A stretch of 33,208 nucleotides of DNA from an uncultured bacterium (GTDB lineage: Bacteria; Zixibacteria; MSB-5A5; CAIYYT01): contig CAIYYT010000066.1 in assembly GCA_903930455.1 (NCBI GenBank), positions 1 to 33,208 on the forward strand, written 5' to 3'. Below the pieces are notes generated by a model. The model did no database searches. It was given only the letters and a program-made list of their open reading frames with translations, and had not been told where the DNA came from. Each line of letters opens with the position of its first letter. Positions within the stretch are counted from its first letter, which is position 1. This document shows, piece by piece, positions 9,307-14,835 of the stretch. Position numbers and translations under genes: made by a program.

Positions 9307-9359
9307 AATACCTGAGAATTCTACCCAACGTCTCACCTGTGCACCTTTGGGAGTCCGAC

Positions 9360-11738
9360 ATGTTCTGCAAAAAAGCTCTGATCCTTACAGTCCTTTCGTT
9401 GCTTATGGCTTCTACCTTGACGGCAACGACAAATCCAAATTCATCCACAACTATTCAGAAGATGAACCAGATGCCACTGTCATTCACCAAGAATATGGGG
9501 CAGTGGGATGACCGCGTCTTGTTCCGCGCCAACGCCGGTGGGGCGACAATGTGGTTCACGAAAGACGGCGTGACATACCAGTTCACGCGACGTATTGAAA
9601 CACGTAGCGGCGCGGTCCCCGCGCCGGGCCTGGATTCCCGACTGCGCGGGAATGACAAGGAGAGCGGGAATGGCATTGAAAAGGACAGCATTGAGCAATT
9701 GGTGTTGACCGCCAAATTTCTCGGCGCCAATCCCAATCCCGTAGTTTTCGCCGACGGCCAAATGGAATACAAATGCAACTACTTCCTCGGCAACGACCCG
9801 ACCAAATGGCATAAAGACGTTCCCAACTACGAAGCTATCACTCTCAAAGACATCTATCCCGGCATCGACCTGAAATACTCCGGCGACGGCACTGGTCAGG
9901 CGGCGTACGAGTTCATAGCCGCTCCGGGTGTCGATATTGCCCAGATCAAAGTAGCCTACGAAGGCGCAGAAGAGACTTCCCTTGACGCCGACGGCAGACT
10001 CATCCTGAAAACCAAATGGGGAGATATGATCGCCGCAATAGACTCCCCTCGCCCTGTGGGAGAGGGGGCGGGGGTGAGGGCAGTTCTCTCCGGCAATACA
10101 AGCTGTGCGTGGCGGACGTCCTCGTCTACCACATCGTCGTCCGACTTGGCGCACGGGGACGTACGCCAAGCAATGGCAGGAAATTCCGGGACACTTACGC
10201 TGGCCTACAGCACCTACCTCGGCGGGGGGAGTTATGAGTATGGATGGGGCATCGCGGTTGACGGCAGCGACAATGCCTATGTGACTGGCCAGACCTACTC
10301 CTCCAATTTCCCGACTCAGAATCCCTATCAGACGGATCAGGACGGCTGGGATGTCTTTGTGACCAAACTCTCCAGTTCCGGCAGTGGCCTGATCTACAGC
10401 ACCTACCTCGGCGGGGGAGGCTACGATTATGGATACGACATTGCGGTCGACGACAGCGGCAATGCCTATATGACGGGCTGGACTTCTTCTACCAACTTCC
10501 CGACCTTGAATCCCTATCAGACGTATCAAGGCGCGGGTGATGTTTTTGTGACTAAGCTCTCCAGTTCCGGCGCCAGCCTGATCTACAGCACCTACCTCGG
10601 CGGGGGAAGCACCGATCAGGGTCGTGCCATCGCGGTCGATAGCGGCGGTTATGCTTATGTGACGGGCAATACTTATTCTACCAACTTCCCGACTTTGAAT
10701 GCCTATCAGGCGACGTATCAAGGCGGTGACAAGGATGCCTTTGTGAGCAAGTTGTCAAATTCTGGCAACAGCCTGATCTACAGCACCTACCTCGGCGGGG
10801 GAGGCGTAGATGATGGTGAAGACATCGCAATCGATAGCGGCGGTTATGCCTATGTGACGGGCTATACTTATTCTACTAACTTCCCGACTTTGAATCCATT
10901 CCAGTCGTATCGCAAAAGCGACTATGATGCCTTTGTGACCAAGCTCTCCAGTTCCGGCGCCAGCCTGATCTACAGTACCTACCTCGGCGGGGAAGACAGC
11001 GATGGTGGATGTGGCATCACGGTCGATGGTGGCGGTTATGCCTATGTGACGGGCGGGACTTCTTCTTCCGACTTCCCGATCTCGAATCCCTATCAGACGT
11101 ATCAAGGCAACGGTGACGTTTTTGTGACCAAGCTCTCGAATTCCGGCAACAGCCTGATTTTCAGCACCTACCTTGGCGGGGGAAGCGAGGATGAAGGATA
11201 CGGCATCGCGGTTGATGGCGGCGGTTATGCCTATGTGACGGGCTATACTGATTCTCCCGACTTCCCTGCTTTGAATCCCTATCAGGCTTATCAAGGCAGC
11301 TATGATGTTTTTGTGACGAAGCTCTCCAGCTCCGGCAACAGCCTGATCTACAGCACCTACCTCGGCGGGTCAGGCGGTGACTATGTGACTGGGATCGCGA
11401 TCGATGGTGGGGGCAATACCTATATGACGGGCTATACTTATTCTACCAGCTTCCCGACTGTGAATCCCTATCAGGAGTATCAAGGTAGCGGTGATGCCTT
11501 TGTGACCAAGTTGAGCTGGGCGCCTGACTACCTCTGCGGTGATGCCGATGGCGAAGGGACAATCAACATTGCCGACGCGGTCTACTTGATCAGCTATATT
11601 TTCTCCCACGGGTCAGCGCCATCGCCATTGGCAGCAGGTGATGCAGACTGCGACGGCGTAATCACTATTGCTGATGTCGTTTATCTGATAGGGTACATCT
11701 TTTCCCACGGACCTGCGCCGTGTGCGGGGTGTAAGTAG
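9360..11738 (+). CDS. Secreted SBBP-repeat propeller protein with dockerin-like C-terminus
   Basis: 792 residues from the ATG at 9360, chosen because GGGAG lies six bases upstream and a signal peptide follows at once (MFCKKALILTVLSLLMASTLTA); an in-frame GTG at 9339 is less likely. After an N-terminal domain of the type that precedes SBBP repeats (FTKNMGQWDDRVLFRANAGG), seven repeats of about 62-65 residues run from about residue 280 to 718, each opening with STYLGG and carrying G.AIAVD..G.AYVTG and D.FVTKL; these are SBBP beta-propeller blades. The C-terminus has two Ca-binding dockerin-type loops (GDADGEGTINIADAVYLI, GDADCDGVITIADVVYLI). Probably a cell-surface or secreted protein. The frame contains palindromic repeat DNA at 9609-9653 and 10041-10168 without being broken. 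Confidence 0.85.
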   Translation: MFCKKALILTVLSLLMASTLTATTNPNSSTTIQKMNQMPLSFTKNMGQWDDRVLFRANAGGATMWFTKDGVTYQFTRRIETRSGAVPAPGLDSRLRGNDKESGNGIEKDSIEQLVLTAKFLGANPNPVVFADGQMEYKCNYFLGNDPTKWHKDVPNYEAITLKDIYPGIDLKYSGDGTGQAAYEFIAAPGVDIAQIKVAYEGAEETSLDADGRLILKTKWGDMIAAIDSPRPVGEGAGVRAVLSGNTSCAWRTSSSTTSSSDLAHGDVRQAMAGNSGTLTLAYSTYLGGGSYEYGWGIAVDGSDNAYVTGQTYSSNFPTQNPYQTDQDGWDVFVTKLSSSGSGLIYSTYLGGGGYDYGYDIAVDDSGNAYMTGWTSSTNFPTLNPYQTYQGAGDVFVTKLSSSGASLIYSTYLGGGSTDQGRAIAVDSGGYAYVTGNTYSTNFPTLNAYQATYQGGDKDAFVSKLSNSGNSLIYSTYLGGGGVDDGEDIAIDSGGYAYVTGYTYSTNFPTLNPFQSYRKSDYDAFVTKLSSSGASLIYSTYLGGEDSDGGCGITVDGGGYAYVTGGTSSSDFPISNPYQTYQGNGDVFVTKLSNSGNSLIFSTYLGGGSEDEGYGIAVDGGGYAYVTGYTDSPDFPALNPYQAYQGSYDVFVTKLSSSGNSLIYSTYLGGSGGDYVTGIAIDGGGNTYMTGYTYSTSFPTVNPYQEYQGSGDAFVTKLSWAPDYLCGDADGEGTINIADAVYLISYIFSHGSAPSPLAAGDADCDGVITIADVVYLIGYIFSHGPAPCAGCK
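9609..9653. repeat. Palindromic interspersed repeat inside the SBBP gene, dRS3-like
   Basis: Two adjacent palindromes: GGCGCGG-TCC-CCGCGCC (9609-9625) and ATTCCC-N8-GGGAAT (9634-9653). The second has the form of the Neisseria dRS3 element. Its translation in this frame, LDSRLRGND, is a peptide I know as a frequent by-product of such repeats in coding sequence. The insertion keeps the reading frame. Confidence 0.6.
10041..10168. repeat. Cluster of palindromic repeats inside the SBBP gene
   Basis: A GC-rich element at 10041-10081 reads PHPRPLSHRARG on the opposite strand, a well-known translation of an interspersed bacterial repeat. It is followed by two imperfect palindromes, 10109-10132 (GTGGCGGACG ... 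CGTCTACCAC) and 10147-10168 (TGGCGCAC ... GTACGCCA). In the gene's frame the region encodes a low-complexity Ser/Thr linker between the N-terminal domain and the first propeller blade. Confidence 0.55.
10200..11515 (+). repeat. Seven tandem SBBP-coding repeats
   Basis: DNA repeats of about 185-196 bp marked by near-identical copies of AGCACCTACCTCGGCGGGG at each unit start. Similarity is high at DNA level between units, indicating recent internal duplication or gene conversion. They code for the propeller blades of the surrounding gene. Confidence 0.8.
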
Positions 11739-11877: not shown

Positions 11878-13035
11878 TCAGGTCAATATCAGCGGAATTA
11901 CTTCGTGCTCTGTCAATTGCTGAAGTGCAACCGCTTCCCGGCAGGTGTAGGTGATCAGCTTAATTCCGTCGGCTGGCAGACTCAGCAGGTCGATGTCGCC
12001 CAGATGCCGCCACTCTGCCTCGGGACGCCAATCGGAGACTTCCGAGCCGCGACTCTGGAAAAAGGGCCAGTCGCTGTCAGCAAGTTGGGAATACAGGTTG
12101 TCATCACCGTAGACAACCGGGCGCAAACCTGCCGCGATAGCGGTATCCGTCCGGATTGCCACTCCATAAGGTTCGAAACTGTAACTAACATACCGCCGCC
12201 GCCAACGCATCAATTTGACAGCTTCACGCGGTTCGAGCGCCGAGAACGACACGACTTGGTGGCCGCCACGGATAAACCTGTTGGTGCTTCGGATTGTCCT
12301 GTCGGTGGCGATTCGCAGTAGTGTGTGGTAAGCCGACCGACAGTAGTTGTCTAATGCGAGAATGTCGCGGTAGTATTCGAATCTGGTCTCCGCGGGGTAG
12401 GGTCCGTGCGATGACCGGGTCCAATGGATGACGTACCGCCAGTTCGGATCATCAATGGCTGGATTAAGGGTACAACCTTCGAAATCGTATCGCACCCGAT
12501 CAACTGGACGGCGGTAATCGACACGGAAATCGTTGCAGATTTCCTTTCCCGCTGTCGCGGCTTGATTTTGAAGTCGGTCGAAATTGCCACCGGGGCGAAT
12601 CGACAGAGGTAAAACCACATCAGCAAGTTCAACAGCCAGAAGATCACGCTCTGGCCAGAAATCTTTCGCGCTCTTGCCGGGTACGGTGTCTGAACTCGGC
12701 GCGACGAATAGGCAGCGCGCCGGGTCGAGCTTGAAATCGTCAATGGTTTGAGCGATCACCGACGGTATCGATTCCTCCTCCATCGAGGGAAGGACAATAA
12801 TCTGTCGACCTCTTTCGATGTTCACCAAATGAGCAGTCAGTTCCCAAGTGTTCAGTCCGGTAGAGGTAATGACGGTTAACTCCTGTCGGATGACGCCGTC
12901 GACGGCCCGTGACGTTGCCGTCACCCAGTCGTCGTGGTTACACGGGCGTTTCGACTGTCGCGAGTTGAGGATGACGCATTTGCGGTCGGGTGGAAGCAAT
13001 TCTATCTGTCGGCATTGACTGTCAAATATGAGCAT
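11878..13035 (-). CDS. DprA-like Rossmann region plus AbiGi-like C-terminal region, function unknown
   Basis: 385 residues, no signal peptide or membrane segment. Residues about 52-165 follow the DprA/SMF pattern in order: a strand VITSTG, a TAHLV helix then GRQIIVLP (78-83), FWPERDLLAVELADVVLPL (126-144, compare the FPxRNRIIxGL segment of DprA) and GGNFDRLQNQAATAGKEI (149-166). The C-terminal half carries HWTR (204-207), a VVSFSAL segment (261-267), EPYGVAIR (288-295), a VVYGD strand (307-311) and EWRHLGDIDL (341-350), an arrangement reminiscent of AbiGi/DUF2971-type proteins with H...YG...EWR positions. Both assignments are pattern-based inference. The start at 13035 has only a distant GAGGG upstream. 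It stands alone between the SBBP gene and the basic-peptide ORF. Confidence 0.6.
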   Translation of the reverse strand: MLIFDSQCRQIELLPPDRKCVILNSRQSKRPCNHDDWVTATSRAVDGVIRQELTVITSTGLNTWELTAHLVNIERGRQIIVLPSMEEESIPSVIAQTIDDFKLDPARCLFVAPSSDTVPGKSAKDFWPERDLLAVELADVVLPLSIRPGGNFDRLQNQAATAGKEICNDFRVDYRRPVDRVRYDFEGCTLNPAIDDPNWRYVIHWTRSSHGPYPAETRFEYYRDILALDNYCRSAYHTLLRIATDRTIRSTNRFIRGGHQVVSFSALEPREAVKLMRWRRRYVSYSFEPYGVAIRTDTAIAAGLRPVVYGDDNLYSQLADSDWPFFQSRGSEVSDWRPEAEWRHLGDIDLLSLPADGIKLITYTCREAVALQQLTEHEVIPLILT

Positions 13036-13138: not shown

Positions 13139-13166
13139 CGACCCGTGTCAAGTTTGATACGGGTCG
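13139..13166. terminator. Hairpin between the basic-peptide ORF and the DprA-like gene
   Basis: Near-perfect 13-bp inverted repeat (CGACCCGTGTCAA with TTGATACGGGTCG, one G.T pairing) with a 2-base centre. It lies 122 bases downstream of the 25-codon ORF and 103 bases upstream of the next minus-strand gene. A second 7-bp hairpin (GCTGCTT/AAGCAGC) overlaps its left edge. No T-run is seen. Confidence 0.45.
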
Positions 13167-13288
13167 TTGGAAAGTTCGCAGACCGGAGACTGTAGAAATC
13201 AATTTGTGATGTCCTGGTTCAGTGACGATCATTCCCTGATCAAGCCGACTGACACATTCACAGTCCCCACAAGATTTGAACCGCTACG

Positions 13289-13366
13289 TTATTTCTTCTT
13301 GGCGGTCTTCTTGGCTGGCTTCTTGGCGGCCGGCTTCTTCGCTGCTGGTTTCTTCTTAGCTGGCAT
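13289..13366 (-). CDS. 25-residue Lys/Ala/Pro-rich basic peptide (histone H1-tail-like)
   Basis: Short ORF read by hand: a Met followed by repeats of the PAAKK type, 25 residues made of Lys, Ala and Pro with a single Thr, ending in KKK. Support for translation is the AAGGAG ribosome binding site seven bases before the ATG (13374-13379), better than that of many larger genes here. Lys/Ala/Pro repeats of this kind occur in the tails of bacterial histone H1-like DNA-binding proteins; here there is no attached domain and no frame extension upstream. DNA or polyanion binding is inferred from charge. Its upstream DNA is AT-rich and motif-rich (13480-13790). Confidence 0.55.
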   Translation of the reverse strand: MPAKKKPAAKKPAAKKPAKKTAKKK

Positions 13367-13373
13367 GACCAAC

Positions 13374-13379
13374 TCCTTT
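13374..13379 (-). promoter_or_regulatory. Strong ribosome binding site of the basic-peptide ORF
   Basis: AAGGAG on the minus strand with a 7-base gap to the ATG at 13366. It is the main evidence that the 25-codon ORF is a real gene. Confidence 0.6.
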
Positions 13380-13995
13380 GGAATGTGTTTAGGGTTTATG
13401 AGGTACTCAACTATTGTCGCGTACATCCCTGATGGTGAGAAGAACTAAGCAACACGTCAGTGTTTGTTTTTCTTGCATCGCAAGCTCTCGTCATCATCGT
13501 TTGCCAGAACATATCTACAGAAACAGAGATCATCTTTTGTAAAAATAAAATCAACAAAAAACTTTTAGTCATGCTCAAGAATGTAACATTTTTTTTGCGA
13601 TGACCTCCTCATCGAGATCAACTCGTCATTAGTTTTATCGACTGCGCATCGTACGACGTTAGGTTCTGAGATGAAAAAAGTGCATCGATCGACCGTCATC
13701 GACACTTATTCATCGATGACCTCTCGCCATCGTGAAGATATCAAGACATGCATGTTCACATTGATGTCATCACTGTGAATGTCAGAGCAGAAGTCGTCGA
13801 GGGGAATTGATCGCGCTATCACTCGAGGGTGGAATGATCCTTCCGCACTTCCGTCCGATCGATATCGTCGCACTGGTGGTCAGACAGGAACGTCCAACCC
13901 GCCGTTAGACTGGAATTGTCCTTATGCCTGCTGCTGGGCGAAGTATTTCTCTTTCGCCAAGTCCCCAGATTCGGACTTTTGAAATGCCCAGACCG
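13380..13995. other. Gene-poor AT-rich stretch with repeated CGATGACCTC / TCATCG motifs
   Basis: No convincing gene. From about 13500 to 13790 the DNA is clearly more AT-rich than its surroundings. CGATGACCTC occurs at 13598-13607 and 13714-13723, each followed by CATCG so that a short inverted repeat forms; TCATCGATGA (13710-13719) is a perfect palindrome, and further TCATCG/CGTCAT copies lie between. TTCACA (13755-13760) and TGTGAA (13774-13779) form another inverted pair. The stretch lies upstream of the basic-peptide ORF on the minus strand, so it may hold its control region. Short ORFs between 13779 and 13990 have no coding character. Confidence 0.45.
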
Positions 13996-14606: not shown

Positions 14607-14619
14607 GCGGTTGTGTAAT

Positions 14620-14693
<74 letters not shown>

Positions 14694-14835
14694 TTTTCTT
14701 ATGACGACGCCACAAACCCTTCACATCTAAGCCAGAGAAGCCAGAACCAGCCCCACTCAAGGGATAAGCCCCATATTCGTACTTCCTTGCCCGAATTTCG
14801 GTAGACACGATTTCTGATCGTCCTATCTTAGCAAC

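Follow-up and report, generated by a model that had tools for sequence, protein, structure and literature searches.

The window, namely the whole stretch of 33,208 nucleotides that was analysed, is contig C66 of genome G000 (3.77 Mb, 266 contigs), and it harbours a short open reading frame (ORF) located alone in an intergenic region, with a divergent tRNA-Arg gene on one side and a same-strand gene of 385 amino acids (aa) on the other. The following features were recognized at this locus:

13289..13366, minus strand: microgene for a 25-aa domainless peptide, MPAKKKPAAKKPAAKKPAKKTAKKK, with its stop codon (ORF reading, chance control and relatives)
13373..13379, minus strand: Shine-Dalgarno sequence AAAGGAG, with a 6-base gap to the ATG
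13367..13680, minus strand: 5' leader and promoter region, unusually conserved between two congeners (alignment)
13551..13564, minus strand: promoter-like motif AAGTTTTTTGTTGA, about 200 nt before the ATG
13139..13166, minus strand: inverted repeat, a possible terminator without a T run, about 120 nt 3' of the stop codon and a hairpin in the folded structure
11878..13035, minus strand: conserved downstream neighbour gene, 385 aa, with an orthologue in 5/5 genomes of the family
14619..14694, plus strand: tRNA-Arg(acg), divergent neighbour, with a similar sequence at the corresponding G002 position (by eye)

The start codon of the microgene lies at positions 13366-13364 and its stop codon at 13291-13289. 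The encoded peptide is composed of 12 K, 7 A, 4 P, 1 T and 1 M, has a side-chain charge of +12, and contains no acidic, aromatic or large aliphatic residues. An earlier note on this DNA had described a basic K/A/P peptide of 25 residues preceded by a strong ribosome-binding site, leaving the strand unstated; both elements are confirmed and belong to the minus strand, the plus strand of the 13289-13379 interval being translated as LFLLGGLL.... An alternative in-frame ATG further upstream, at 13426, would yield a 45-aa version, and a good Shine-Dalgarno is absent from the bases preceding it (AGTTCTTCTCACCATCAGGG). As a chance control, 300 random windows were generated with a first-order Markov model; of their 175,355 ORFs with 25 aa or more, none reached the K/A/P/T richness set by our rule, which a single ORF of the real window does; a K/A/P-rich frame accompanied by an ideal Shine-Dalgarno is unexpected by chance, which counts against an incidental ORF. 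The 25-mer retrieved no Pfam or NCBIfam family at E ≤ 10 and all of its residues are tail. A free histone-H1-type tail without a folded domain, as the same note had proposed, is the best reading of the product. A search of solved structures with the peptide returned 0 hits.

The 385-aa neighbour lies about 250 nt from the stop codon of the tail, and its label as a glycosyltransferase was dropped because neither Pfam nor NCBIfam gives a match. Further downstream, a 799-aa ORF (9339-11738) contains repeated STYLGG...AVD units and, by eye, a dockerin-like C-terminal end; it is less conserved in the congener, with mostly 70-90% DNA identity. Regarding the leader, the RNA of positions 13367-13560 folds no better than its shuffles (z -0.48) and gave no Rfam family at gathering score, with one chance-level match (SNORD109A, E 3), and on these grounds a structured leader RNA was rejected. 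A tRNA-like T-arm perceived by eye directly after the stop codon was likewise discarded: it is changed between the congeners, and ARAGORN reports the tRNA-Arg alone. CGATGA-type motifs were counted in the leader. A motif like AAGTTTTTTGTTGA is found about 181 nt ahead of the G002 tail, and the form AAGTTTTT(T)GTTGA occurs at 7 places in the window's genome, including 13564-13551 and a position before an enolase-like ORF; as it also precedes other genes, it was rejected as a tail-specific signal and probably belongs to promoters in general. For the tail gene itself, the sigma70 scan yielded no promoter (best -35/-10 reading at the motif, 7/12), and the terminator scan neither called the inverted repeat at 13139..13166 nor reported a T-run terminator after the tail. 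Evidence on promoter and terminator is weak for the tail of the window.

Conservation within the genus and family was assessed in genomes G000 to G004. The congener G001 carries a 25-aa tail ORF with 74 of 75 coding bases identical and the same AAAGGAG, two features that the note had proposed to seek in relatives. The sole change (K15E, from the alignment with G000) is non-synonymous, and conservation extends into non-coding DNA, both of which depart from its expectation of synonymous changes. The best 300-bp window of the G000/G001 comparison reaches 98.3% identity and starts at 13273, against a mean of about 88% (88.4%) over the aligned parts of the contig; the best 400-bp window reaches 97.3% from about 13284, with window means of 88-89%. 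The best 300-bp window takes in the ORF and part of its leader; ORF and leader are thus conserved jointly, and more strongly than the genes next to them. The approximately 300 nt of non-coding leader (13380-13680) are unusually constrained, being conserved about as strongly as the ORF.

In G002, which belongs to another genus, a 28-aa domainless tail, MKKTAAKKTAKKTAKKPAKKATKKSTKK, occupies the same locus upstream of the 385-aa orthologue (48% identity), with the gene order relative to this neighbour and, further upstream, to TsaD as in the window; the tail begins otherwise than MPAKKK. Sensitive blastn of the region against G002 gave strong alignments from the K-rich coding stretch, whereas the leader gave only short common motifs, chiefly AAAAGTTTTTTGTTGATTT. 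A terminator hairpin with a T run follows the G002 tail (z -2.52); terminators after the other tails were judged by eye and are unscored. The frameshifts or stops that the note had named as evidence against the gene did not appear, the frame being open in all three family genomes with sequence (G000, G001, G002); in G003 and G004 the contig begins 222 and 48 bases, respectively, ahead of where the neighbour matches, which leaves no data on the tail. When used as a query against 57 relatives, the 25-mer matched strongly only in G001 (remainder E ≥ 0.12), as expected for so short a query, and the G002 tail was missed both by this search and by an alignment-based one. A TsaD search of named genomes matched two Candidatus Zixiibacteriota MAGs, one of them with 97% identity over 65 residues, and the window's genome itself appears to be a Zixiibacteriota MAG; of the two loci obtained, L010 has no such tail, and L011 ends inside TsaD and gives no data. 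A second free K-rich microgene, MAAKGKKDIKRETKKPAKKTKKK, is present in the window's genome on contig C19 (L264, about 3.5 kb), at a locus that matches a G002 locus with a 22-aa K-rich ORF, next to an M1-peptidase/dockerin protein.

Beyond the family, a DNA pattern consisting of a Shine-Dalgarno plus MP[AV]KKK was found in 36 of 132 genomes of the class (56 listed sites), with zeros across the listed rows for the reversed-pattern control. From these 56 sites, 54 distinct gene sequences were classified: 19 display a SWIB-like C-terminus, 22 are of other kinds, and 13 (10 of them ≤64 aa) are domainless, a label that denotes a composition rule, without a fold test. SWIB (PF02201) was matched in 36 of 58 relatives searched and in none of the five genomes of the window's family, the window's own included. 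Domainless tails occur alongside a separate SWIB gene in, for example, G013, G020, G027, G043 and G048. Among the tabulated tails, sequence and length drift across genera and the K+R fraction stays at 0.48-0.64; with length and sequence varying at constant charge density, composition, rather than a fold, seems to be under selection. In close pairs, tail coding bases are identical at 45 of 45 positions in three f13 pairs and at 158 of 159 in G028/G044, where the change is synonymous, and the flanks are 92-97% identical upstream and 63-92% downstream; G020/G048 was left out of this count due to differing lengths. Common descent of tails at different loci cannot be proved from sequences of such low complexity.

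Similar K-rich leaders and tails are also fused to SWIB, zinc and enzyme domains in the class, and the K-rich tail is, as far as sequence can tell, a charge module spread over unrelated proteins. Long K/A/P-rich C-terminal tails were observed on succinyl-CoA ligase alpha-type proteins (CoA_binding, Ligase_CoA; L043 in G035, L050 in G049, L247 in G004), and K-rich tails on MmgE/PrpD-type, inositol-1-phosphate-synthase-type, carbamoyltransferase and S1-domain proteins (L058 in G002, L246 in G003, L214 in G021, L180 in G013). Proteins of 54-65 aa combine an MP[AV]KKK tail with a CVPCG...CC(G/S) motif (L145, L146, L147, L148, L171, L172, L205), L145 resembling desulfoferrodoxin models below cut-off. 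In others, 41-60 aa long, a basic tail is linked with a C(A/V)GKTK(E/D)GKRC...C..H motif (L193, on contig C46 of G000, and L211, L213, L176); in the window's genome, the 43-aa protein of this type (L193) stands behind the promoter-like motif AAGTTTTTGTTGA. Three tandem K-rich tail ORFs are found in L047 (G014) at 3.9-4.3 kb.

A GAF / sigma54-interaction AAA+ gene precedes several domainless tails of sister families, as determined with Pfam in G020, G043, G014 and G021; a PD-(D/E)XK-type gene stands between activator and tail in f10 and f8, and a VanZ-like gene follows the tail in f10 and G043. So that loci were not chosen by tail, the activator was searched in 38 genomes, 17 of which have a match at E ≤ 1e-95; five genomes have a second activator match, and the best match per genome was examined; for 5 of these 17 best matches, the search reported one stop inside the alignment. 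A K/R-rich domainless ORF (15-116 aa) follows the activator at 12 of these 17 loci, measuring 21 aa in G043, 116 in G057, 47 in G013, 49 in G020, 27 in G048, 22 in G027, 25 in G011 and 31 in G047. Three species (G025, G037, G056) share an identical 15-aa tail, MPAKKKAKAKKGKKK, with AAGGAGGTGA, and the G009 tail, which starts MAVAKKR, is 104 aa long. No such tail was found at the activator loci of G129, G130, G131 and G042 (f16), 4 of the 17, and the G032 locus ends inside the activator gene and provides no data. Between activator and tail, the pattern TGGC[AC][CT]N5TTGC, which we take to be the sigma54 -24/-12 promoter form, is present in 11 of the 12 loci, G009 being the exception. Throughout 669 kb of related loci, on both strands, it has 11 matches, 7 before domainless tails and 4 elsewhere, and it lies ≤700 nt upstream of 7 of the 54 MP[AV]KKK genes, all 7 domainless. 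From this arrangement, the tails of several sister families look as if they were switched by the adjacent sigma54 activator, which would point to a dose set by growth state. No activator match at E ≤ 1e-95 was obtained in the window's family (best 6.5e-88, with the top matches confined to the AAA+/HTH part), and no sigma54 pattern occurs within 1300 nt upstream of the window's tail; sigma54 control of the window's own gene was rejected, as the pattern was not found upstream. Class-wide domainless tails together with a recurrent sigma54 arrangement are, at the level of predicted genes, the surprising extension of the earlier note.

Regarding function, the AT-rich motif about 200 nt ahead of the ATG would drive transcription of the single-gene unit, the promoter in the window's family seeming to be of the housekeeping type, and the ORF would be translated into a free, unfolded and strongly basic tail. 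Such a peptide may act as a genome-encoded polycation, a counterpart of polyamines lying along DNA, which would neutralise phosphate charge and help to condense or shield the nucleoid beside HU, whose genes are present in 5/5 family genomes. DNA binding in vitro is reported for KPAA-repeat peptides, as is a resemblance of the AlgP KPAA tail to the histone H1 tail (PMC9239181). For SWIB proteins, an action on chromatin is presumed (PMC6426960). DNA is the first candidate partner, because KPAA peptides are reported to bind it and because SWIB proteins are the commonest identified carriers of the leader. On balance, we lean towards a genuine microgene whose product is a free H1-type tail, acting most likely as a DNA-neutralising polycation. 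The peptide most likely exists in this free form and owes its binding of polyanions to charge; from charge alone, one cannot tell whether the partner is DNA or instead RNA, ribosomes or polyphosphate. As a broader and clearly more tentative proposal, Zixiibacteriota may encode "protein polyamines", i.e., domainless lysine tails of 15 to about 116 residues under sigma54 or housekeeping-type promoters, whose dose would adjust how far the nucleoid is neutralised and compacted; the same tail would serve as a mobile charge module on SWIB, zinc, S1 and metabolic-enzyme domains.

The alternative that comes nearest to this DNA-neutralising tail, a real peptide whose partner is another polyanion (polyphosphate granules, RNA or ribosomes), so that it would be a charge buffer, a condensate former or a granule organiser, is less likely in our estimation, though a serious candidate, and draws on the same physics as DNA binding. 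AlgP, with its KPAA tail, is reported to associate with polyphosphate granules and to be needed for their even spacing, and polyphosphate and polycationic peptides to form condensates together (PMC9239181); the chlamydial protein Hc2 is described as binding RNA with higher affinity (PMC2848022), and the class carries K-rich stretches on an S1-domain protein and on enzymes. A role at DNA is nevertheless favoured by the SWIB proteins, which presumably bind chromatin and are the commonest identified MP[AV]KKK carriers (19/54). We consider it improbable that the conserved element is the 300-nt leader itself, as a promoter, regulatory region or small RNA, with an incidental ORF: about equal conservation of leader and ORF between G000 and G001, and an ORF change that is non-synonymous, would suit this explanation, but in the comparison with G002 it is the K-rich coding stretch that aligned. 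The fold score and the Rfam search given above also speak against it, as do the K/A/P-rich frame with its ideal Shine-Dalgarno, beyond chance expectation, and the recurrence of domainless tails at other loci.

Decay of a longer gene, which the note itself had named as a possible refutation, was not borne out. The ORF would then be the surviving N-terminal tail of a protein that once had a SWIB or other domain, an origin suggested by the fusion of the MPAKKK leader to SWIB in relatives and by the lack of a SWIB gene in 5/5 family genomes; it is hardly probable given the strong conservation between congeners, the clean stop and Shine-Dalgarno that have been kept, and the negative SWIB search of the window's genome. 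Moreover, intact SWIB genes coexist with domainless tails at other loci, and with both present in the same genomes (the five named above being examples), domain loss is not needed as an explanation. Attenuation, in which translation of a lysine-rich leader peptide controls the downstream 385-aa gene, is very unlikely: the short ORF does lie upstream of that gene on the same strand, with an inverted repeat in between, but approximately 250 nt separate the stop codon from the neighbour, a strong terminator follows the G002 tail, and elsewhere the genes that follow the tails vary (VanZ-like and others), with tail lengths of up to 116 aa that would be long for a leader peptide.

Short low-complexity genes are easily missed by gene finders and low-complexity filters. 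H1-like tails known from bacteria belong to larger proteins, as in AlgP and Hc1, or make up long repeat proteins such as Hc2 and BpH1, and a conserved gene that consists of the tail only isolates the question of what a disordered basic tail does alone. It also offers a small, synthesisable test object, along with comparable loci whose tails naturally span 15 to 116 residues, and a candidate for a sigma54 switch. Should our reading be true, the 25-residue peptide would be among the smallest candidate chromosome-coating proteins, and the 15-residue version among the smallest architectural chromosome proteins proposed.

No paper dealing with such free tails turned up in a limited search of the open-access literature, the sole match for PAAKK-type strings, as far as the indexed text goes, being a paper on a neurogenesis peptide; under the terms searched, Hc1 and SWIB are unmentioned in the text seen of a review of nucleoid-associated proteins (PMC11894785). 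Compared with known systems, the peptide shares with Hc2 (chlamydial histone H1-like, PF07382) and BpH1 the lysine/alanine-rich short repeats whose number is reported to set the length (PMC2848022), having PAAKK-type repeats and 12 K among 25 residues. Hc2, however, is described as 165-237 aa long (PMC2848022), and against the PF07382 model (cut-off 40 bits) the 25-mer gave no match at E ≤ 10, 3 of 8 other tails matching weakly (best 19.7 bits). In Pseudomonas, the C-terminal K/P/A repeats of AlgP/PhaF have been likened to the H1 tail (PMC9239181), but theirs is a tail on a larger protein and the window's is the whole gene product; an N-terminal domain of that type is absent, as even from the upstream ATG at most 20 residues precede the tail, and the 45-aa version has no Pfam match. 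Hc1, the chlamydial H1 homologue, also has a lysine-rich DNA-binding tail (PMC2848022), whereas its conserved N-terminal dimerisation domain is missing from the window's peptide. The SWIB proteins of the class resemble it in the MP[AV]KKK start and strong Shine-Dalgarno (19/54 genes) and differ by the SWIB domain, and for the HU fold (PF00216), again, the peptide has no Pfam match. By the features compared, the peptide is thus expected to work like an H1-type tail and falls outside Hc2, Hc1, AlgP/PhaF, SWIB and HU. It resembles in kind the sigma54-linked tails of other Zixiibacteriota families, which are domainless, K-rich, mostly start with MPAKKK and follow an AAGGAGG-type Shine-Dalgarno; the window's gene, a domainless K-rich ORF with a strong Shine-Dalgarno as well, stands at a different locus, without the sigma54 pattern or a GAF/sigma54-activator neighbour.
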